A program made the position numbers and the translations under genes. DNA of 34,276 nucleotides from a virus. Numbering within the stretch: position 1 is the first letter of the stretch; each line of letters begins with the position of its first letter. The DNA lies in the IMG/VR virus record IMGVR_UViG_3300047300_000344, positions 1 through 34,276 of that record; one strand, given 5' to 3'. Below, in pieces: positions 4,884-33,000 of this stretch. The notes under the pieces are model-generated. The model did not search any database and was not told the origin of the DNA. It saw nothing but the letters and a program-made list of their open reading frames with translations.

Positions 4884-4892
4884 ATTATACCA
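4884..4892 (-). promoter_or_regulatory. Extended -10 promoter, near-leaderless start of the lectin-like gene
   Basis: On the minus strand this is TGGTATAAT, an extended -10 (TGN plus TATAAT), ending 9 nt before the ATG at 4874. A second overlapping TATACT lies 4 nt before the ATG. No Shine-Dalgarno is present, so the mRNA should have a leader of only a few bases. The upstream gene ends at 4896, so the box lies in a 21-nt gap. Confidence 0.6.
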
Positions 4893-11296: not shown

Positions 11297-12178
11297 TTAA
11301 ACCTCTTCCAGTGTAATAGAAATATTCCATAGGTCGTGATTAGTTCCTCCACGTCTTTCAACTGTGTATGAGAAATCAGAAATAAACATTTCTACTATTT
11401 GATTGTATTTTCCAAGGTTTGCATATTTATCAGTTACACCAGTAACTGCATCAAAGTTATTAAACTTATCGTAAGCTAGGTATACCCAGAAAGAACCCTT
11501 GTGATTTTCGTACCAGTCTAGCAAATCCACTCCTCCAGCACCGCCGTCTGATGTGTATTGATACAAAAATGTTCCACTAGACGGACCAATTGTATCCTTT
11601 AGTCCTGCGTATCCAGTAGTAGATGCTTCTCCAGTTGAATAGTTAAAGTCTGGGCTGTTAGAGAAAGAACGAGATGGCAACAGTTGCCAAGATGTGGAAA
11701 TTTGAAGTTTATCTGCAATATGATATGACCGCATACGACCATTAACCATTCTTCTACGAGACTCAATACGCATAGGCTTTACATCTATTCCAGAGCGATT
11801 GTCGTCAGACAGGATTAGAAACTCTCCTACTGCTGTTGCCTTTGCGTTAGTTAAAGTTGGGGTTCCAGTTGTGGTATTTGTTACCCTAAAGTATGTTGAA
11901 GTAGCAGCAGTAACTGTAAATTGACCGTTAAACCCAGAAATAGATAGACCAGAAATGATAACAACATCTCCAACCTGAAACGTATTGTTTGCTGTATACT
12001 CTACTGTGCCAGAGCTTGGATAAGCGTCGTTTACTGCAGTAATTGAAGCTATAGAGTTTACCTCTTGTCCTAGTGGAACGTAGGTTCCGCTTACAAGAGT
12101 TCCAGAATTTTCTGAGAACATAATTCCCTGTGGTCTTTGGTATTGTTTTCTACCAGTCATGTACGCTAGTCCAGCCAT
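11297..12178 (-). CDS. Distal-tail-like minor tail protein
   Basis: 293 residues, directly after the tape measure and before the hub protein, the usual place of the Dit (distal tail) protein. The order is: N-terminal arm, an inserted beta domain at about 40-120 (VEYTANNTFQVGDVVIISGL then a short FRVTNTTTGTPTL strand) and a C-terminal half with GSFWVYLAYDKFNN and ISDFSYTVERRGG that looks like the ring-forming core. The insert is similar in style to the KOW/Ig-like loops found on tail proteins. AGGAGCAATAGG precedes the ATG, which overlaps the tape-measure stop (TAATG). Dit is the most economical call, but sequence similarity is too weak to be certain. Confidence 0.6.
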   Translation of the reverse strand: MAGLAYMTGRKQYQRPQGIMFSENSGTLVSGTYVPLGQEVNSIASITAVNDAYPSSGTVEYTANNTFQVGDVVIISGLSISGFNGQFTVTAATSTYFRVTNTTTGTPTLTNAKATAVGEFLILSDDNRSGIDVKPMRIESRRRMVNGRMRSYHIADKLQISTSWQLLPSRSFSNSPDFNYSTGEASTTGYAGLKDTIGPSSGTFLYQYTSDGGAGGVDLLDWYENHKGSFWVYLAYDKFNNFDAVTGVTDKYANLGKYNQIVEMFISDFSYTVERRGGTNHDLWNISITLEEV

Positions 12179-15100
12179 TAAAACCTATTGCTCCTAATAT
12201 TTTGAGATTCTACACGTCTAATGCTATCCATTACTCTGTTTGCAATTTCATTTGCATCAGAGGCTGACGACACGTTAACGCTTATACTATAATTATACAC
12301 TGAACTGCCTAGCATTCCAGTATCTTTTACAGTTCCACCATTTGCATATCCATTTATCTTGCTTAGTGTATCTACACCAATTCTATCTACCGCAGATTTT
12401 CTAATAACGAATTCTCCAGGAGTTAACATAGCTGGAACGGTATCTGTTCCATTAGCAAAGCCACCAGCAGCAAAGTATGATGGAACCATACCGCCCTTTG
12501 AGAACTTAAACTTAGTATTTCCAAACTGATACAAGTTGTCCTTATATTGTAGCAACGCAATCTGTGCTTCAATCTGACTTCTGTTTTTGCCGCCAGCTGT
12601 AATTGCAGATAGGTCCCTTTGACGCTGTGCTTCAATGGCTGCACCCTGTCTGTCAAAGCCTAGGTTTGAAGCATATGACCTTGATTCTGCAGCAGCATTA
12701 GCAGCAGCAGCAACGTCACCACGAGATACGGCATCAGCGAGGTTTAGCTGTAATTGCTGTTGACGAGTAATTTCTTCATTAGCTTGCTTAACCTTTTCTA
12801 AGGCTTCAACCCTCTTGTCATAAGTTTTATTAATCTTATCTTCTTTATAGGCAATAATGTCAAGTGCTATTTGAAGAAGGTCAATCTTCTTTTGTGTGGC
12901 TTCTAGTCGTGCCTCTAGTGCTGTCTTTTTATCTCCACCGCTAGTATCGGTAAGCTTGCCAAAATCTGTTGTCTTATAAAGATTCATAATTTTTGCAATT
13001 GCAATTGCTTGTTCTGTAAATGTTCCATTGTTTAGCAATGCTTGGGTTTGATTATCAATCATATTATTTTGAGCCATAACTAGAAGCTTAAACTGTTCAT
13101 TAATGTCTCTCATATTGCTAACAACCTTTGTAAGATTAGCATCCCCAATTTCTTTGAGCATTTTAGCAACAACTAATTGCTTTGCCTCTTTTTGTAATCC
13201 ATTAAATTGTTTAGAAAGTTGAGCAACTCCACGTCGATATTGGTTTGCTGAAATCAGACCAGCGTGATATTGGTCTTTAAGTGCTTGTAATGCAGCAAGA
13301 CTTCCGCCTGCTGCTGTTTCAAGGTTTTTCTTTCCTGCTTCTGTTGTTGGTGATGTGTCTGTTCCATACTTTACCATTCCAGAACCACCATTTAGACCAA
13401 TAAGGTCTGTGGTTTTTATTGAACCAATACCACGTGCTGCTGCACCGACCTGACCGACCGATACTCCAAATGCTTTTTGTCCAACTTTTGTTCCAATTCC
13501 AAACTGACTTCCAACACTTGTTGCACGACCAGCCATCATAGAAATTGCTTGTAGCTGCTGCTGAACTTCTTCATTGCTATATCCTTGTGCTCTTAATTGC
13601 ATTCCAAGATTTTGAAGTGTCATTTGTGCATCTACTGGATTCATGTTCTTTAGTCTAGATGCTAGCTGCTTATTTTGCTTTTTAAATTCTGGGTCTTTGG
13701 CTAGGGCAGCAACAGTTCCAGAGTTTTGAGCACCAAAACCACCACCAAGAGATGTCTCACGAATTGATGAAGTAGGAGTAATGTCTCTGCCAAAGAATTG
13801 AGATGCAGCAGATTTTTGACCCTGTGAAGCCAACTGGGACCTACCAACAGCTACCCTGGCTTCAACTCTCTTCTTTTCTTCATCTGCTGCTGCTTTTGCA
13901 ACTGCACCAAGCAAACTTATTGCTGTAATTGCAATACCAATTGGTCCAGCAAATCTAAGGAGTAGTGGAACAACTTTGCCCAATACCCCACCAAACATAC
14001 CAACAATAGATGAAACCATTGATACAGTATTAAGCATTCCTTGCATTTCTGGTGGTGCTGCCATAGATGCCATGGCTGCAGCACCTGCTACACCAAAGCC
14101 ACCACCACTAATTTTTCCGCCAATATTAATCTTGCCAGTTTTAACTTGATTGTATCTAACCTTTGCTCTAGCAAGCCTCATTTGGTTCTTTGTTTTTCTT
14201 GACAAAGCATTTCCGTTTGCTCTCATTGCTGCTGCTTCAGCAGCCTGTCTTGCTTCTAGGTCTCCAGGAGTTTGAACTCTTCTTCTACCACCAGACTGTG
14301 TTCCACCTGGTGTAATAATCATTGGTGCTGTGCTTCCACCTGGGTCCTGTGCTCTTCTAGCTTTTCCAGATGCTCCACCAACAACAGCATTTGCAAGTGT
14401 TTGTCCAGCAGCCTTAGCATCATCTACCTGAGACTTTGCACCACTATTAAGAGCCCTTCCATAATCTTCACCTGCATCAATGGCTTCTTGTGGTGGAGAG
14501 TTACGCTTAGTTGCTCTATCAAATCCGTTGGCAACTGCATCATTCCAAGCTTTCTTAACTCTTTCAGCAAATGACATTCCTTTTGCTCTTAGTTGTTGTG
14601 TTGGAACTGTTACAGCTTTACCAATTTCGCCTTCTTTTGTTATTTGTGTAACGCCCTGCTGACCTCTTTGTACCATTGCCTGTGCAGACTTAGTAAGATT
14701 TCCAGATTTAGCATATTCTGACATTGGAACTGATTTAGGGTCTGTCAGGTGTGCAAGAACTAGCTCTTCTTCTGGAGGAAGCATTCCAGATAAATTTTCC
14801 CCTGTTTGTAGATAACCACGTTTTTTATTTTTATAAGATGCCAGTCTCTTAAAGATACCCATTCTTCCAATTGAGTCAACTCTTCCACTCTTTCTAATTC
14901 TTAGCTTAGTTGGGTCTTCTACCGTAGTTAGCTGTGACTGAACTCTTTGCACTGCAGAAAGTTGCTGTGGTGTAAGCATATCTGAGTTTGCAGCTACTGC
15001 TTTTTTAAATTCTGCTCCAACAGCTGCGTCACCAATTTTGCCTGGAATTCTTGAAATGCTTTCACCTAGGGTCTTTGAAGTTTTTTCTACAAACGCAACT

Positions 15101-17487
15101 AGTTCTGGATTTCTTTCAATTTCTCTTCTAATATTTGCTTGAGAAACTCTCTGACCGCTTTCAATAAGCATCTGAGTTGCTGCTTCGTGTAGAATTGGTG
15201 AAAGAACTTTTCCTCCACGAGCCAAAATATTTTTACCAAGACTTCCAGCATCTGCCTTGCCAGCTTTTAAGTCATAGTTTTCTGTTGCTGTAAATAATCC
15301 AACTGCGTTTGTGTAAGACTTTACGTCTGGACCTCCAACAATGCTTCCACCATCTGGACTTGCATATCCTGGAACCGTTCCTGCTGCAATATTTTGCAAC
15401 AATGGAAGATACTGCTTAGTTCTCTTTGCACTTGTAATAAACTCTCCATTAGATACCATAGCTGGAATAGAGTCTGATGTTCCACTTCCTGGACCCATAA
15501 TCATTCCACCTTCAGCAAATCTTTTAACTGGTGTTGCTGGTCTCATTCCAGAAGCAGCAATATTTCTTTGATAAGCAGCAGTTAGTTGATTAAGTGCTCC
15601 TGCCTCAAGAGTAAATGTTTGGCGAAGTTTATTGTGTGCTTGGTCAAGTGAGGATGCGATTGCAGCAGCCTCTACTTGCTCATTGGTCATATATTGTGTT
15701 TGACTTGCTAAGTCTCTAGAGCTACCGCCAAGTTTATTAAAACCATTCTTCATAAGAGCAAATAGTTTAATGATGTTTGCTGCACCGTTTGCAATCAGAC
15801 CGAATGTCATTAGGAAGATTGGACCGATACCACCAATTAGACCAGTAGCATTAACAATAAACTGCTTGATACCACTGTCAAGATTATTAAACGATTTTAG
15901 AATATCTGAACCAAACTGGACAATTGGGGTAATAGCTTTTAAGAATTCTTCTCCAACTGGGGCAAGCTGAACCTTAATATCTTCAATGGCTTTTTGAAAC
16001 TTATACATAGGTGATTCTGACAGCTTCTTAAGCTCTGAATTGGCAAGTTTTGCAAGGTCCGTAGAAGATGATGCAGCCATTTCTAGTACACGACTAGCCT
16101 GAGTACCCTCTCCAATTACGTTTTTAAATAGTGTTGATAGACGTGAGAACTGGAACTTACCAAACAATTGCTCAATTGCTTGTGCACGGTTTAGTGGGTC
16201 TAAGGTATCTAAGGCTTTAGCAAATTCAATAACAGTTCCTCTAACGTCACCCTTATTTGCTTCTACAATTTGTTTTAGATTAATTCCAAATCCAGCTAAA
16301 AAGTTTGATGCTTTTTCAGTTGGATTAATCATAGAGGCAAGACCAGACTTTAGTGCGTTTGCACCTTCAGAGGCATTGATACCACCTTCACGCATTGCTG
16401 TTAGGAAGAATGTTAGGTCTTCTACGTTACCACCCAATTGTTTAATTACTGGTCCTGCTTTTGGAATAGCCTCTGTTAGGTCTTCAATAGATGTTACAGT
16501 TTGGTTTTCAACTGCGTTTAAGAAATTAATTTTTTTACCTAAATCTTGAGCTTTTACTCCAAATGCATCTGTTAGGGACATTGTAGTTTGCAATGCCTGT
16601 TGTTGCTCTACGTTACCAAGAACTGCTAGTCTGTTTGCCTGATTAACCTGAGATAAAAGTGCAGCACCAGTTTTACCAGTTGCAGCAGCGGAAGCTGCCA
16701 ATTCCATAGTTTTTGATGCAGCGACACCATACTTAGTAAACTCTGTTGCTAGGTCACGAATATCTTTGAGTGCTTTATTTGTTTCTTGAGAAGTAGTAAA
16801 GATATCTCCATAAACACGTTTGAACTTGATAGCTTGAGCTTCCATTTCCATAAATGTTTTAGCTGCTGTACTTCCTAGAATACCCAAAGGAATTGTAAAA
16901 CCAACCATAAGCTGACGACCAGCCCACTGGGTGTTTTTACCAAAGTTTAGAAGGTTTGTTGAGCCTTGCTTTAATAGTTGATTTAGCAATGCTTGCTTTT
17001 GTGCAGCCATGGCTGTTTTTGTTGCAAGATTTTCCATGTCAAGCACAAGTGGTCTGACTTTGATTGCTTGCATTGCACCATTTGCATCACGCCCCAATTG
17101 AATGTATTGTGTCTGCAGGTCTTTTACACGTTCACGTGCAACCTTGTTTATAGTGTCAAATTCAGACTTAAATAGTTTTCCAAAGCTTTTGGATGCCCCA
17201 CCTGCATAACGAAAATACTCTCGCATTGAGAGCTTGTTCTTTTCAAGTGAGCTAGTGAAAGACTCTGTAGTAGTCTTAATTGTTGTTAGACTTGCTGCAA
17301 ACTTACCGCTTGCATTTACATTGTCAAGTAGTGTTCTTTGTAGATTCTTGGCTGCCGCTGCTTGTGCAGATGACGACCTTGCCATTTGGGTTTGAAAGGC
17401 TGATATCTGATTCTGAAGTGCCTTGATACTCGCCATTGCATCTGACGTATCAACGTTTACTTTTATATTAGATTGGATATCAGCCAT
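12178..17487 (-). CDS. Tail tape measure protein
   Basis: 1769 residues. Sets tail length and is ejected with DNA. The N-terminal 150 residues are coiled-coil-like and Gln/Ala-rich. Residues about 190-500 match the TP901-type tape-measure core (GRQLMVGFTIPLGILGSTAA, then AREGGINASEGANALKSGLA in near form). Hydrophobic segments lie near 545-575 and 1150-1190. Two copies of the motif G-T/S-D-x-V/I-P-A-M-x-x-x-G-E-F occur, at about 665-690 and 1680-1700; these are common in tape measures. Between them is an extra region (about 700-1150) unlike the core. At the usual 0.15 nm per residue, 1769 residues predict a tail near 265 nm, so a long-tailed siphovirus. AGGGGTG precedes the ATG; the gene follows the second chaperone by 15 nt. 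Confidence 0.93.
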   Translation of the reverse strand: MADIQSNIKVNVDTSDAMASIKALQNQISAFQTQMARSSSAQAAAAKNLQRTLLDNVNASGKFAASLTTIKTTTESFTSSLEKNKLSMREYFRYAGGASKSFGKLFKSEFDTINKVARERVKDLQTQYIQLGRDANGAMQAIKVRPLVLDMENLATKTAMAAQKQALLNQLLKQGSTNLLNFGKNTQWAGRQLMVGFTIPLGILGSTAAKTFMEMEAQAIKFKRVYGDIFTTSQETNKALKDIRDLATEFTKYGVAASKTMELAASAAATGKTGAALLSQVNQANRLAVLGNVEQQQALQTTMSLTDAFGVKAQDLGKKINFLNAVENQTVTSIEDLTEAIPKAGPVIKQLGGNVEDLTFFLTAMREGGINASEGANALKSGLASMINPTEKASNFLAGFGINLKQIVEANKGDVRGTVIEFAKALDTLDPLNRAQAIEQLFGKFQFSRLSTLFKNVIGEGTQASRVLEMAASSSTDLAKLANSELKKLSESPMYKFQKAIEDIKVQLAPVGEEFLKAITPIVQFGSDILKSFNNLDSGIKQFIVNATGLIGGIGPIFLMTFGLIANGAANIIKLFALMKNGFNKLGGSSRDLASQTQYMTNEQVEAAAIASSLDQAHNKLRQTFTLEAGALNQLTAAYQRNIAASGMRPATPVKRFAEGGMIMGPGSGTSDSIPAMVSNGEFITSAKRTKQYLPLLQNIAAGTVPGYASPDGGSIVGGPDVKSYTNAVGLFTATENYDLKAGKADAGSLGKNILARGGKVLSPILHEAATQMLIESGQRVSQANIRREIERNPELVAFVEKTSKTLGESISRIPGKIGDAAVGAEFKKAVAANSDMLTPQQLSAVQRVQSQLTTVEDPTKLRIRKSGRVDSIGRMGIFKRLASYKNKKRGYLQTGENLSGMLPPEEELVLAHLTDPKSVPMSEYAKSGNLTKSAQAMVQRGQQGVTQITKEGEIGKAVTVPTQQLRAKGMSFAERVKKAWNDAVANGFDRATKRNSPPQEAIDAGEDYGRALNSGAKSQVDDAKAAGQTLANAVVGGASGKARRAQDPGGSTAPMIITPGGTQSGGRRRVQTPGDLEARQAAEAAAMRANGNALSRKTKNQMRLARAKVRYNQVKTGKINIGGKISGGGFGVAGAAAMASMAAPPEMQGMLNTVSMVSSIVGMFGGVLGKVVPLLLRFAGPIGIAITAISLLGAVAKAAADEEKKRVEARVAVGRSQLASQGQKSAASQFFGRDITPTSSIRETSLGGGFGAQNSGTVAALAKDPEFKKQNKQLASRLKNMNPVDAQMTLQNLGMQLRAQGYSNEEVQQQLQAISMMAGRATSVGSQFGIGTKVGQKAFGVSVGQVGAAARGIGSIKTTDLIGLNGGSGMVKYGTDTSPTTEAGKKNLETAAGGSLAALQALKDQYHAGLISANQYRRGVAQLSKQFNGLQKEAKQLVVAKMLKEIGDANLTKVVSNMRDINEQFKLLVMAQNNMIDNQTQALLNNGTFTEQAIAIAKIMNLYKTTDFGKLTDTSGGDKKTALEARLEATQKKIDLLQIALDIIAYKEDKINKTYDKRVEALEKVKQANEEITRQQQLQLNLADAVSRGDVAAAANAAAESRSYASNLGFDRQGAAIEAQRQRDLSAITAGGKNRSQIEAQIALLQYKDNLYQFGNTKFKFSKGGMVPSYFAAGGFANGTDTVPAMLTPGEFVIRKSAVDRIGVDTLSKINGYANGGTVKDTGMLGSSVYNYSISVNVSSASDANEIANRVMDSIRRVESQNIRSNRF

Positions 17488-17502: not shown

Positions 17503-17820
17503 TTAGACGTTACCGCCGATTACTGCACTTCCAGTTAGGTCAATACCTGATGCCTCATTGATGATAGCATACACTGTTGGAAGGTCTAGTACCTCTTCTA
17601 GTTTTTCTAGTTCAGCAAGCTCTGGTTCGAACTGCTGCATTGCAAGAACAACGCAGTTCATAAGAACGGTCATTGATTTGTTGTTGTCTTCTGCAACTTC
17701 GCTAATCTCGTCAAATGTTTCCATAAACTTTTTTAGCAATGATATTTTTAAAGGTCGCACCTTGATAACTGTTCCATCAAGTAGAGCGATTTCTTTTTCT
17801 TGAGTAATGGTTAAAGCCAT
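17503..17820 (-). CDS. Tail assembly chaperone, short form (G-like)
   Basis: 105 residues. Binds and protects the tape measure before tail tube growth. The whole protein corresponds to the N-terminal domain of the preceding gene: LLDGTVIKVRPLKISLLKKF here against LIDGTELYIVPLKIKYLRDF there, then C-V-x-x-AM-x-Q in both and a similar acidic end. So it is a duplicated stand-alone G-type chaperone, with no T-like extension. It ends 15 nt before the tape measure. Unlike the long form, it has its own -10 box and a strong TAGGAGGAATCA before the ATG, which should give much more short protein than long protein. In most long-tailed phages the same two products come from one gene by programmed frameshift. 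Confidence 0.8.
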   Translation of the reverse strand: MALTITQEKEIALLDGTVIKVRPLKISLLKKFMETFDEISEVAEDNNKSMTVLMNCVVLAMQQFEPELAELEKLEEVLDLPTVYAIINEASGIDLTGSAVIGGNV

Positions 17821-17848
17821 TGATTCCTCCTACTAGGTTTGTAATAGA

Positions 17849-17857
17849 AGTATATCA
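17849..17857 (-). promoter_or_regulatory. Extended -10 promoter of the short tail-assembly chaperone
   Basis: Minus strand TGATATACT (TGA plus TATACT), 28 nt before the ATG at 17820, followed by a leader with TAGGAGGAATCA. The 12-base string TGTGATATACTT is shared with the ribonucleotide reductase promoter, and both continue within a few bases to ATTACA. No convincing -35 is visible. Transcription from it would reach the tape measure and tail-tip genes. Confidence 0.6.
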
Positions 17858-17861
17858 CATT

Positions 17862-18542
17862 CTAGTCCCATTTTTCGTAAGATAGACCCATCCCTAAACC
17901 AAAACCAGCTTTTTGAGCATTTTGTCCTTGTAGTGCCAAGATGTCATCTGGGTCACTTGTTGCCCCTCCACTAAATACCCTAGCCTTCATAGCTTCCCAT
18001 GGGTCCTGCTCTTTCTTACCACTTTGCTCGTCTAGGTCAACGCCTTGTAGACCTGCCAAGAATCTTTTATCTAAATAATCTAAGTCTCTTTTTATACTTA
18101 GTGTCGCCAATAGTTCTGGCAATGACATCGATGATTCTAGCTCTTCATAGTCTTTCCAAATACCAAGCAAAAAAGCCTCTGACTCTATCTTGGCTAAGTC
18201 AAAGTCTGCCCAAGTACTTGTCTCTTTTTCTTCATCATTTTTAGCGTCACCATCTTTAGCTGGACCAAGGTATCCAGCTATCTCAACAATTTTATGCATT
18301 GTGGCAATATCTATATTATCCTCAACATCTTCTACTGTTTTAATTGCTGGTAGATATTGCTTCATGGCTACCAGAACGCATTCAGACATTTTGGAAATAC
18401 TCTCTATGCTATTAGGAGAACCTTTTACTAACTCTAGCTTTTCCATAAAATCTCTTAAGTATTTTATCTTTAATGGAACGATATATAGTTCTGTTCCGTC
18501 AATTAGCGATACCGTCGCCGTTTCATATATTTTAGTAGCCAT
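17862..18542 (-). CDS. Tail assembly chaperone, long form (G-T-like fusion in one frame)
   Basis: 226 residues. Residues 8-93 are the chaperone N-domain shared with the next gene. A charged linker (94-110, KDGDAKNDEEKETS) leads to a second domain (111-226) with AFLLGIWKDYEELESSMSLP and LDYLDKRFLAGLQG, which corresponds in position to the T-like extension normally added by ribosomal frameshift. Here the two domains are in one uninterrupted frame. No canonical slippery heptamer is needed or obvious at the joint. The start is unusual: TGGTATACT lies 6 nt before the ATG, with no ribosome binding site, so the mRNA would be leaderless. The gene begins just after a strong terminator that follows the major tail protein. 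Confidence 0.8.
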   Translation of the reverse strand: MATKIYETATVSLIDGTELYIVPLKIKYLRDFMEKLELVKGSPNSIESISKMSECVLVAMKQYLPAIKTVEDVEDNIDIATMHKIVEIAGYLGPAKDGDAKNDEEKETSTWADFDLAKIESEAFLLGIWKDYEELESSMSLPELLATLSIKRDLDYLDKRFLAGLQGVDLDEQSGKKEQDPWEAMKARVFSGGATSDPDDILALQGQNAQKAGFGLGMGLSYEKWD

Positions 18543-18548
18543 CTATCT

Positions 18549-18557
18549 AGTATACCA
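18549..18557 (-). promoter_or_regulatory. Extended -10 promoter giving a leaderless mRNA for the long chaperone
   Basis: Minus strand TGGTATACT, ending 6 nt before the ATG at 18542. A start 6-7 nt downstream of the box falls on or next to the A of ATG, so the message should be leaderless. No Shine-Dalgarno is present. The box abuts the T-run of the upstream terminator, so termination and re-initiation are packed into about 45 bases. Confidence 0.65.
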
Positions 18558-18590
18558 AAAAGAAACTCCCCCTACCGAAGTAAGGGGAGT
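18558..18590 (-). terminator. Strong intrinsic terminator with UUCG loop after the major tail protein
   Basis: Reading the minus strand, an 11-bp stem (18565-18575 with 18580-18590; one G-U pair) is capped by TTCG between C and G, the very stable cUUCGg tetraloop, and followed by TTTCTTTTT. It lies 20 nt after the major tail protein stop and directly before the next promoter, so it should cap tail-protein transcription and reduce read-through into chaperone and tape measure. Confidence 0.88.
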
Positions 18591-18609
18591 CTCAACTATT
18601 AAGTTATGT

Positions 18610-19293
18610 TTATAGAGAGTTGTAGTTAACTCCAGGGTAACCAGCCTTGCTGCCAGCTGCAACGGTGCGGTCAACAATCTTTCCGTATGAACCTGAGTCA
18701 TTTGGAAGTAGACGGAATGAAACGTCAAACATTGTTGCTGCATCTCTCTTTGCTGCTACTGTAACGCTATCGATTGAGATAGCACGGTAAGCAACATAGA
18801 TACGTTCGATTGCAGAACCAACTTCACAGTCACCAGTTCCTGGACCAACTGCGACTAGACCAGTCTCAATTGGGCAGTCTCCGATGTTTCCTGCAGATAG
18901 GTTAAGAGTATCCTCTTGACCAATCGGGAAGTTACTTGGAGCAATATATGCATCGGTTGTTGGACGAGCCAGAACCAATAGCAAGTTTTCTAGCGTAGCT
19001 TCTGCAAAGCTTGTGTTAAGGTTAACAGTCATGCCCTGCTTGTAAAGCTTGGCTACGTCTAGTACCTGGTCAACAGAAACTTCTCCAAAGTCTGGAGCGA
19101 AGGTTAGTTCAATACCGTTGCTGGTGTAACCAACGTTGCGGAATGTTCCAGTTGCAGAAGATAGTGTTTCTTTGTATGCAGTGCCATTTGTCGCCAATGG
19201 AAGGTTTGCATCCGCCATTTCGCCTTCTTTGAAAGCGAAGAGAGCAGCTGCACCAACAATGATGTTAGCACTTGTACCACGTGTATATGCCAT
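18610..19293 (-). CDS. Major tail (tube) protein
   Basis: 227 residues. Forms the tail tube. It lies between the neck genes and the two chaperones, the standard place in long-tailed phages, and has the expected size and composition: few charges, Ala/Gly/Thr/Val-rich, alternating strands such as GIELTFAPDFGEVSVDQVLD (60-79) and TMFDVSFRLLPNDSGSYGK. Its base composition is visibly richer in G and C than the flanking tail genes, as for the capsid gene. AAGAGGTGAATAAATT precedes the ATG, and a -10 box TATACT lies about 56 nt upstream. A strong terminator stands directly after the stop. All of this fits a very highly expressed virion protein. Confidence 0.85.
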   Translation of the reverse strand: MAYTRGTSANIIVGAAALFAFKEGEMADANLPLATNGTAYKETLSSATGTFRNVGYTSNGIELTFAPDFGEVSVDQVLDVAKLYKQGMTVNLNTSFAEATLENLLLVLARPTTDAYIAPSNFPIGQEDTLNLSAGNIGDCPIETGLVAVGPGTGDCEVGSAIERIYVAYRAISIDSVTVAAKRDAATMFDVSFRLLPNDSGSYGKIVDRTVAAGSKAGYPGVNYNSL

Positions 19294-30981: not shown

Positions 30982-33000
30982 TTAATTTTTGTCTGGAATC
31001 TTAATCTCACAGTAATCGGTGGTGCAATATGCCTCACCCTGTGCTTCAAGATTATCCACACCATCGTAGATTGCTGAGAAATCAATCTTAGCAATTCTAC
31101 CAATGTAGTAGTCATACTCTTCTTCTGAGATTTCTGTGTATGGCTGTTGCTCATAAACATCATTACCCATTGGAAGGAATGATACAGCCTTTAGCTGACC
31201 CTCGTACATATTAAGTACAGAAGCAACGTGCTGTTTTTCAGTTTCCTTATCAAATGACAAGGTTACTGACACACCATTGTCTGACCAGTACTTTTGAGCA
31301 GTAGCAGCAAGTGCCATCTTCTCAAAGATAGTTACATCCTTTTCTGAACGCTTAATGCCTGAAGAAATTGGGAAGTATACTACTGAAGTATTGTCTGAGT
31401 ATAGTGCTGGTTCTACCTTGTACCCTGCTGCCTTGAAAAGGTGTAGCATTGGGTCTGTGTTTCCAAAACGAATAGCACGTAGGTAGAACTTGCCTCCTGG
31501 CATCCAGTGGACACCTGGAGTTGCTCCAGATAGAATTGATACTGAGCCAGATGGCTTGACTGTAGTTACACGAATTGATTCACGAACACATAGCCACTCT
31601 GAGTATTTTCTGTCATAGAAACGAATCTTGTTGTAACCCTCGTCCATCCATTCACGAGTTGCTGGTAAACCATGAGCGTCAGCAAATGATGCAATACCAG
31701 TTAGTGATGTTCCGATACGACGGTTACGTTGCATAATACCATTGGTTTGCTGCCAGTGCGTAGGAAGAAGTGTTACAGTCTTTCCGTACAAGTAAGCAAA
31801 CTTTAGAGTGCGTAAGAAGTCTTCCTTGCTCTCGTGACGGTTTAGGTGAACCTCAACTAGGGTACATAGTTCATATGACTCTAGTGGCTGTTCTGCACAT
31901 GGGTTGAATCCCATAACACGGTAGTCTTTGCCATCTGCAGGGTCTGCTAGGCGACCATAGTTGCGAGCAACATCTAGCCAGATAAAGCCTGGCTCTCCAT
32001 TGTCTGCAATGCGGTCAACATACTGTGTGTAGTCCATACCAACCTTGGCAGAAATAGAGTTGTTTGACATCCATGCCCAAGGGGCACGGTCTGGGAACTT
32101 CTCATAGTTCTTTAGGTTGATAAATTCTTCATCTTCTGCACCACCCAAAGCGAGGGTAGCAGAACGACGAACGTTACCTGCAACAACACAGGTTCCAATG
32201 AGGTTAACAATGTCAACGATTGCACGAGAGTCTAGTTTTTCTCCTGCACGTCCACCGATAACTTCACGAAGTTGATTATGTACCTTAATTAGTGGAGCTG
32301 GTCCAGAGGCTGTTCCACCAAAGCCCTTAATTGGAGCACCTTCGGGACGAATTAGAGAGTAGTCAAATTCTTGAATAGCCTGATTTGGTCTTAGGAATGA
32401 GTTTAGAAGCAGTCGTAGTGACTCTACCCATCCTTCACGAGTGTCTGGAATCTCGTAGGTTACTGCTGGCTCTACTGGTGTGTAGATTGGGAAGTTCTTT
32501 TCTGCACCAAGTGTATCAAAGCCTACACCGATACCTAGCATCAGGGCATCCATTACCCAAGCAAATAGTGCTCCTGGGTCATTCTTGTCTAGGTCTTTTG
32601 TAGATACCATCGCACAGTTCTGGAGGGCAGCTGAGTTACGCTTTTCCATTGTTAGTGGTGTACCAAATGTCCACATACCACGACCTGGTGGTGTCCACTT
32701 AAGGGTAAACATTCTGTCGAATGCTTCCTGTGCTGACTTCTGTGCCTTGTAGTCATTCCATGGGAGACGGTTCTCCTTTGCATGGTTTTTCTGGACAGAA
32801 TACATACCTTCGATAACTCTGCGTACAACTTCGTACCAGCGTTCTTTAGTTCCATCTTCTTTGACTCGTGAGTAGGTTCTGACAAAGGTAATTTCACCTA
32901 GAGAGTTTCCACCTGCATCCACGAATCCAAAGGGTGATTCCGCTGTTTTGTACTTTTCTACAAAATCATTCGGTAGGGTAAATGAGAAAAATTCCGACAT
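30982..33000 (-). CDS. Adenosylcobalamin-dependent (class II) ribonucleoside-triphosphate reductase, monomeric
   Basis: 672 residues. Converts ribonucleoside triphosphates to deoxy forms using coenzyme B12, with no oxygen and no second subunit. All five cysteines known from the Lactobacillus leichmannii enzyme are present with the right spacing: Cys129 in AALQNCAMVS, thiyl-radical Cys368 in NPCAEQPLESYELC, its partner Cys379 exactly 11 residues on, Glu370, and the C-terminal relay pair Cys659/Cys664 in YCTTDYC. Also visible are VKPSGSVSILSGATPGVHWM (481-500) and the AGNVRRSATLAL segment. It is slightly shorter than the 739-residue bacterial enzyme. It has its own -35/-10 promoter, AAAGGTGG before the ATG and a terminator, so it is a self-contained unit between two fibre genes. 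Likely role: raises dNTPs for phage replication. Confidence 0.96.
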   Translation of the reverse strand: MSEFFSFTLPNDFVEKYKTAESPFGFVDAGGNSLGEITFVRTYSRVKEDGTKERWYEVVRRVIEGMYSVQKNHAKENRLPWNDYKAQKSAQEAFDRMFTLKWTPPGRGMWTFGTPLTMEKRNSAALQNCAMVSTKDLDKNDPGALFAWVMDALMLGIGVGFDTLGAEKNFPIYTPVEPAVTYEIPDTREGWVESLRLLLNSFLRPNQAIQEFDYSLIRPEGAPIKGFGGTASGPAPLIKVHNQLREVIGGRAGEKLDSRAIVDIVNLIGTCVVAGNVRRSATLALGGAEDEEFINLKNYEKFPDRAPWAWMSNNSISAKVGMDYTQYVDRIADNGEPGFIWLDVARNYGRLADPADGKDYRVMGFNPCAEQPLESYELCTLVEVHLNRHESKEDFLRTLKFAYLYGKTVTLLPTHWQQTNGIMQRNRRIGTSLTGIASFADAHGLPATREWMDEGYNKIRFYDRKYSEWLCVRESIRVTTVKPSGSVSILSGATPGVHWMPGGKFYLRAIRFGNTDPMLHLFKAAGYKVEPALYSDNTSVVYFPISSGIKRSEKDVTIFEKMALAATAQKYWSDNGVSVTLSFDKETEKQHVASVLNMYEGQLKAVSFLPMGNDVYEQQPYTEISEEEYDYYIGRIAKIDFSAIYDGVDNLEAQGEAYCTTDYCEIKIPDKN

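Follow-up and report, generated by a model that had tools for sequence, protein, structure and literature searches.

The tail assembly chaperone locus analysed here, in a viral sequence of 34,276 nucleotides (IMG/VR record IMGVR_UViG_3300047300_000344, referred to in full as the window), consists of two genes which, with a probability that we put at about 0.84, have replaced an ancestral one-gene system based on −1 frameshifting. The comparisons given below establish, at the level of sequence, a domain shared by both genes, an in-frame fusion in one of them, the loss of the slip site, relatives that keep the ancestral arrangement, contrasting start signals and purifying selection. That a duplication may stand in place of the programmed frameshift had been proposed in a preliminary description made from the letters of the window only, and the proposal is supported by our results, with homologues carrying one N-domain and a slip site sitting basal in the tree.

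All genes of the locus lie on the minus strand, in the order major tail protein, long gene, short gene and tape measure. The long gene (17862-18542; TAC-NC or GT-like) encodes 226 amino acids in a single open frame, and the short gene (17503-17820; TAC-N or G-like) encodes 105 amino acids that comprise the N-domain without a C-domain. The N-domain of the long form (residues 1-92, 18267-18542), delimited by BLASTP against the short form and by AlphaFold2, aligned with the short protein over 87 residues with 32% identity (E 2e-15), and both N-domains matched the same family, phrog_10504 (E 2.8e-15 and 1.7e-16). The DGT, PLKI, FME and C-V-x-x-AM motifs from which a common domain had initially been recognized were found in both copies. 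Fused to the N-domain in frame 0, the T-like C-domain of the long form (approximately residues 109-221, 17880-18218) matched a separate family, phrog_10474 (3e-13). Thus open reading frames and phrog matches agree with the earlier reading of the first gene as a one-frame fusion to a T-like extension and of the second as the domain alone. Pfam and NCBIfam searches returned no family for the long or the short gene, and a profile search of the two chaperone genes against sequences of solved structures gave no significant match.

Regarding the flanking genes, the tape measure protein gene (12178-17487, minus strand) was recognized by TIGR01760 (E 1.9e-32). The gene at 18610-19293 (minus strand) matched phrog_2175 (1.4e-29) and, weakly, the major tail protein family phrog_885 (6e-4). 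In PHROGs, phrog_2175 carries the labels 'protein with Ig domain' and 'other'. The position of the gene, together with homologues annotated as major tail protein in NiceHouse and SparkleGoddess, points to a major tail protein gene.

The long and the short protein were modelled with AlphaFold2 on alignments of their own clades. Both N-domains were predicted to contain two strands and four helices, equivalent in position and order, with pLDDT values of the long-form N-domain mostly between 73 and 91 per ten-residue block; the C-domain was modelled with lower confidence. In VIA-align comparisons, the HK97 tail assembly chaperone 2OB9 headed the lists of both models with weak Z scores of 4.4-4.5 (Z 4.4 over 87 residues, and Z 4.5 over 86 residues for the short protein, where it was tied with 5IR0), and Foldseek found no significant fold match for either model. 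The predicted order of strands and helices thus gives no indication of different folds in the two N-domains; the resemblance to 2OB9 is weak.

Cultured relatives of the locus were found in Streptomyces phages of the Stanwilliamsviridae (Gilson, Yaboi, Braelyn and Peebs) and in Rhodococcus phage NiceHouse, all of which carry a single N-domain followed by a C-domain in the −1 frame. Their homologues are annotated as tail assembly chaperones, N- and C-domains being joined as a frameshift product in the Yaboi and NiceHouse records. The C-domain of the long gene is homologous to this −1 frame extension of the Stanwilliamsviridae and NiceHouse, and by this comparison two families listed as unknown, phrog_10504 and phrog_10474, are identified by homology as the putative halves of the tail assembly chaperone. 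In the records of Gilson (L086), Braelyn (L088), SparkleGoddess (L090) and Peebs (L091), the −1 frame C-domain appears as a separate truncated gene, sometimes annotated as hypothetical. No cultured record of the phage collection had the N-domain at two places.

In order to survey the locus more widely, IMG/VR loci were collected with seven queries, and 208 distinct loci were classed by profiles of both domains. Type A, with one N-domain gene and the C-domain in the −1 frame, comprises 84 of the 208 loci, including those of the cultured Streptomyces relatives; type B, in which an in-frame N-C gene precedes a distinct N gene, comprises about 120 of the 208, including the window. Genuine intermediates between both types were absent among the 208 loci, the few exceptions being due to contig ends or, in L154, to a one-base deletion. 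L154 was considered as an intermediate combining a frameshift with a short gene and was assigned to type B, because one base near its contig start is deleted relative to L152, with which it shares an identical C-domain. Similarly, L042, L052 and L243 were rejected as loci without a short gene, since nothing more than the contig end cuts them off, and the short gene was present in every type B locus uncut by a contig end. At L164 (4202-5000), an open reading frame resembling, as judged by its translation, a SAM-dependent methyltransferase lies between the long and the short gene, so that both genes are separable, yet both are kept. A scan of genome contigs yielded one distant relative of the frameshift type, L254 (CCCAAAC), on a contig of a metagenome-assembled genome labelled uncultured cyanobacterium, a bin label that may be mismatched to the phage host.

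We then compared the two copies of the N-domain with each other and with those of frameshifting relatives. In the N-domain tree, the long copies form one clade and the short copies another (98/92, 99/94), the latter lying together with the N-domains of the frameshifting relatives. In 25 of the 27 independent pairs compared, the long N-domain showed a higher rate of change than its short counterpart. Median dN/dS values over the 27 independent pairs were 0.21 for the long N-domain, 0.155 for the C-domain and 0.138 for the short N-domain, which indicates purifying selection on both copies. These results bear on the possibility that the short gene took a new role, as a regulator or as an additional chaperone serving a different tail protein, for example, and left the long form as sole chaperone. 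The identity of only 32% between the two N-domains would fit such a change; however, the short form is the slower-evolving copy, is the one nearest to the G-like N-domain found in frameshifting relatives and has been kept in all uncut type B loci, and we consider a new role improbable.

The direction of change was addressed with a C-domain tree of 99 rows rooted with the Stanwilliamsviridae. Its deepest branches (the outgroup, L254, L251 and L114/L120) are all of the frameshift type (99/95, 99/86), and 51 of the 53 fused rows form one clade (97/88); a single clade of all 53 was not rejected (p-AU 0.415). Since frameshift types occupy every deep branch, frameshifting is taken as ancestral and duplication with fusion as derived, probably on a single occasion. 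In the N-domain trees, the long copies branch outside the frameshift and short copies taken together and are not sister to the short ones (94/92), although long and short copies as one clade were not rejected (p-AU 0.169). The trees of the major tail protein and the tape measure need two type changes instead of one; two-gene rows are basal in the former, and one two-gene clade was not rejected in the latter (p-AU 0.203). Recombination, or a second origin of the two-gene type, may also have been involved.

Read the other way, the outer position of the long N-domain and the basal two-gene rows of the major tail protein tree would favour two separate genes as the ancestral state and frameshifting as derived. 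We hold this reversal to be very unlikely, because the Stanwilliamsviridae, NiceHouse, L254 and L251 are all of the frameshift type and the fused C-domains nest within the frameshift C-domains with strong support, and because the faster evolution of the long N-domain could have pulled it towards the root and can explain a false deep placement. If frameshifting was ancestral, the present arrangement would have arisen from a tandem N-C-N-C copy, suggested by the gene order N-C then N, in which the first copy was fused and the second C-domain was lost.

Loss of the slip site is consistent with this direction. In type A, exactly one in-phase canonical heptamer was found within the overlap in 81 of 84 loci (GGGAAAC in 36, CCCAAAC in 34, CCCAAAT in 10 and GGGAAAT in 1). 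The three loci without it are the Yaboi, Braelyn and Peebs group (L087, L088 and L091), which have CCCGGAA where relatives show CCCAAAT and may use it as a non-canonical slip site. Gilson has CCCAAAT, and NiceHouse has GGGAAAA, in phase and directly 5′ of the stop codon. At the fusion junctions of type B, a canonical heptamer was absent in 108 of 118 long genes, including that of the window; the other 10 junctions have scattered in-phase A- or T-type heptamers, mostly AAAAAAN, and a GGGAAA- or CCCAAA-type heptamer was present at the junction in none of the 118 long genes examined. The ends of the short genes lacked a heptamer in 109 of 113 cases, and at the slip-site position the short gene of the window reads ACT GGA AGT, compared with GAG GGA AAC in frameshifting relatives. 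The search for slippery heptamers, recommended at the outset, thus revealed no conserved one in the two-gene type. Two type B loci (L020:4995 and L023:5776) show an in-phase GGGAAAC near the 3′ end of the short gene. It was rejected as a working frameshift site since the −1 frame yields an unrelated tail of about 17 residues, and it is possibly due to chance or a relic. Continued frameshifting of the long gene at A-rich junction runs, which would give extra short product and keep recoding in part, could be read into the heptamers at 10 of the 118 junctions and is scarcely credible, as the heptamer is not conserved, is missing from the window and is at no type B junction of the GGGAAA or CCCAAA type.

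Start signals were compared across loci, with a duplex energy of −4 kcal/mol or better as the criterion for a Shine-Dalgarno sequence and TANNNT ending 4-9 nucleotides 5′ of the start as the criterion for a near −10 box. A near box was found in 118 of 118 long genes, in 0 of 115 short genes and in 0 of 44 type A genes; a comparable box occurred at 4-9 nucleotides in 2.5% of random positions. Conversely, a Shine-Dalgarno sequence was present in 1 of 118 long genes, in all 115 short genes (median energy of −10.2) and in 42 of 44 type A genes. The short genes have their own −10 box 24-39 nucleotides upstream in 114 of 115 cases, and that of type A genes is mostly located 24-37 nucleotides upstream. 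The extended TGn form of the box was observed in 115 of 118 long, 107 of 115 short and 41 of 44 type A genes. Type A start signals thus resemble those of the short gene, with a Shine-Dalgarno sequence and without a near box, and from this we infer that the long copy lost leader and Shine-Dalgarno sequence while the short copy retained both. The spacing between box and ATG of the long gene is exactly 6 nucleotides in 89 of 118 cases, so that transcription would be expected to begin with the A of the start codon.

In the window, the long gene is preceded by a strong intrinsic terminator 3′ of the major tail protein gene (18562-18593, minus strand), with a 14-pair stem and a T-run, and then by an extended −10 promoter, TGGTATACT (18549-18557, minus strand), located 6 nucleotides 5′ of the ATG, from which a leaderless mRNA is predicted. 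The short gene has an extended −10 promoter, TGATATACT (17849-17857, minus strand), 28 nucleotides 5′ of its ATG, and a Shine-Dalgarno sequence, AGGAGG, that can be read at 17826-17831 (minus strand). Both start signals put forward in the preliminary description, a leaderless-type start without Shine-Dalgarno sequence for the long gene and a strong Shine-Dalgarno sequence for the short one, accordingly hold in the window and are conserved across the clade. No terminator-like site was detected in the interval between the long and the short gene of the window; read-through from the long gene would therefore raise expression of the short gene.

According to the mechanism that we propose, the minor G-T-like form would be translated straight from the long gene, an in-frame fusion, on an mRNA whose predicted 5′ end lies at or close to the ATG, and the short gene would produce the abundant G-like form via its own promoter and Shine-Dalgarno sequence. 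Slip frequency, the former determinant of the ratio of long to short form, would have given way to promoter strength and to the difference between leaderless and Shine-Dalgarno initiation. Many short forms would coat the tape measure and few long forms would recruit the tube protein via the C-domain. Both proteins are presumably made, the short one in excess of the long one, and by analogy with lambda the N-domain would bind the tape measure and the C-domain the tube protein. Leaderless translation can be efficient in actinobacteria, so that the long form is not necessarily made at a low level. It is a tentative suggestion, which we hold to be rather doubtful, that the clade gave up recoding in return for a fixed combination of initiation modes, leaderless for the long form and Shine-Dalgarno for the short one, so that the stoichiometry follows the use of initiation modes by the host and could vary with host state.

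The −1 frameshift that yields G and GT ranks with the most broadly conserved cases of recoding in phages and is described as conserved in long-tailed phages except T4 (PMC5009743, a review citing Xu et al., 2004, 2013, 2014), and in lambda the slip frequency sets a molar ratio of short to long form of about 30:1 (PMC5009743). Like lambda gpG and gpGT, the genes of the window lie between major tail protein and tape measure and encode a short and a long form that have the N-domain in common, the long one being extended at its C-terminus; unlike them, they have neither a slippery site nor a −1 extension and are two genes with separate start signals. Chaperones of the gpG and gpGT kind are further characterized by binding of tape measure and tube protein, by absence from the virion and by the importance of their ratio. 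Compared with the Stanwilliamsviridae and NiceHouse, N- and C-domains are homologous and gene order is the same, whereas those phages encode the N-domain once and the C-domain in the −1 frame, with slip sites of the CCCAAAT (Gilson), GGGAAAA (NiceHouse) or non-canonical CCCGGAA (Yaboi and Braelyn) type.

Some T4-like phages have a short TAC-N gene and a separate fused TAC-NC gene without a frameshift (Vladimirov, Gautam and Davidson, 2022, as cited in PMC10885494), and the two-gene principle as such was thus already known. The likeness lies in a short gene accompanied by a separate in-frame long gene, which joins the short form to a downstream part. It concerns the arrangement alone, and common descent with the T4 proteins is not claimed. 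The genes of the window differ in being adjacent and in belonging to an unrelated lineage with affinity to actinobacterial phages, and their clade has frameshifting sister groups and a fixed contrast of start signals. The two-gene solution described here is apparently independent of the T4-like one. What is new are the lineage, the adjacency of the genes, a direction of change that leads from the frameshift to the two-gene state and can be read because sister groups with the ancestral frameshift exist, and the fixed combination of a long gene predicted to be leaderless with a short gene that has a Shine-Dalgarno sequence.

If the main reading is right, the clade, made up mostly of uncultured phages, represents a large natural experiment in which a near-universal recoding event was lost and replaced by gene duplication, and it opens the testable question of whether what selection maintains is the ratio as such, as opposed to the mechanism of recoding. 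Two products of one complex would also be seen to come from a conserved pair of genes, one leaderless and the other with a Shine-Dalgarno sequence. For annotation, frameshift calls should not be forced on two-gene loci.

Elsewhere in the window, extended −10 boxes of the TGnTANANT type were observed at 4884, 6458, 22379 and 26869 (minus strand), at most about 10 nucleotides from gene starts, so that further genes of the phage may be leaderless. A ribonucleotide reductase gene (30982-33000; phrog_367, 9.7e-143) adjoins the structural genes.
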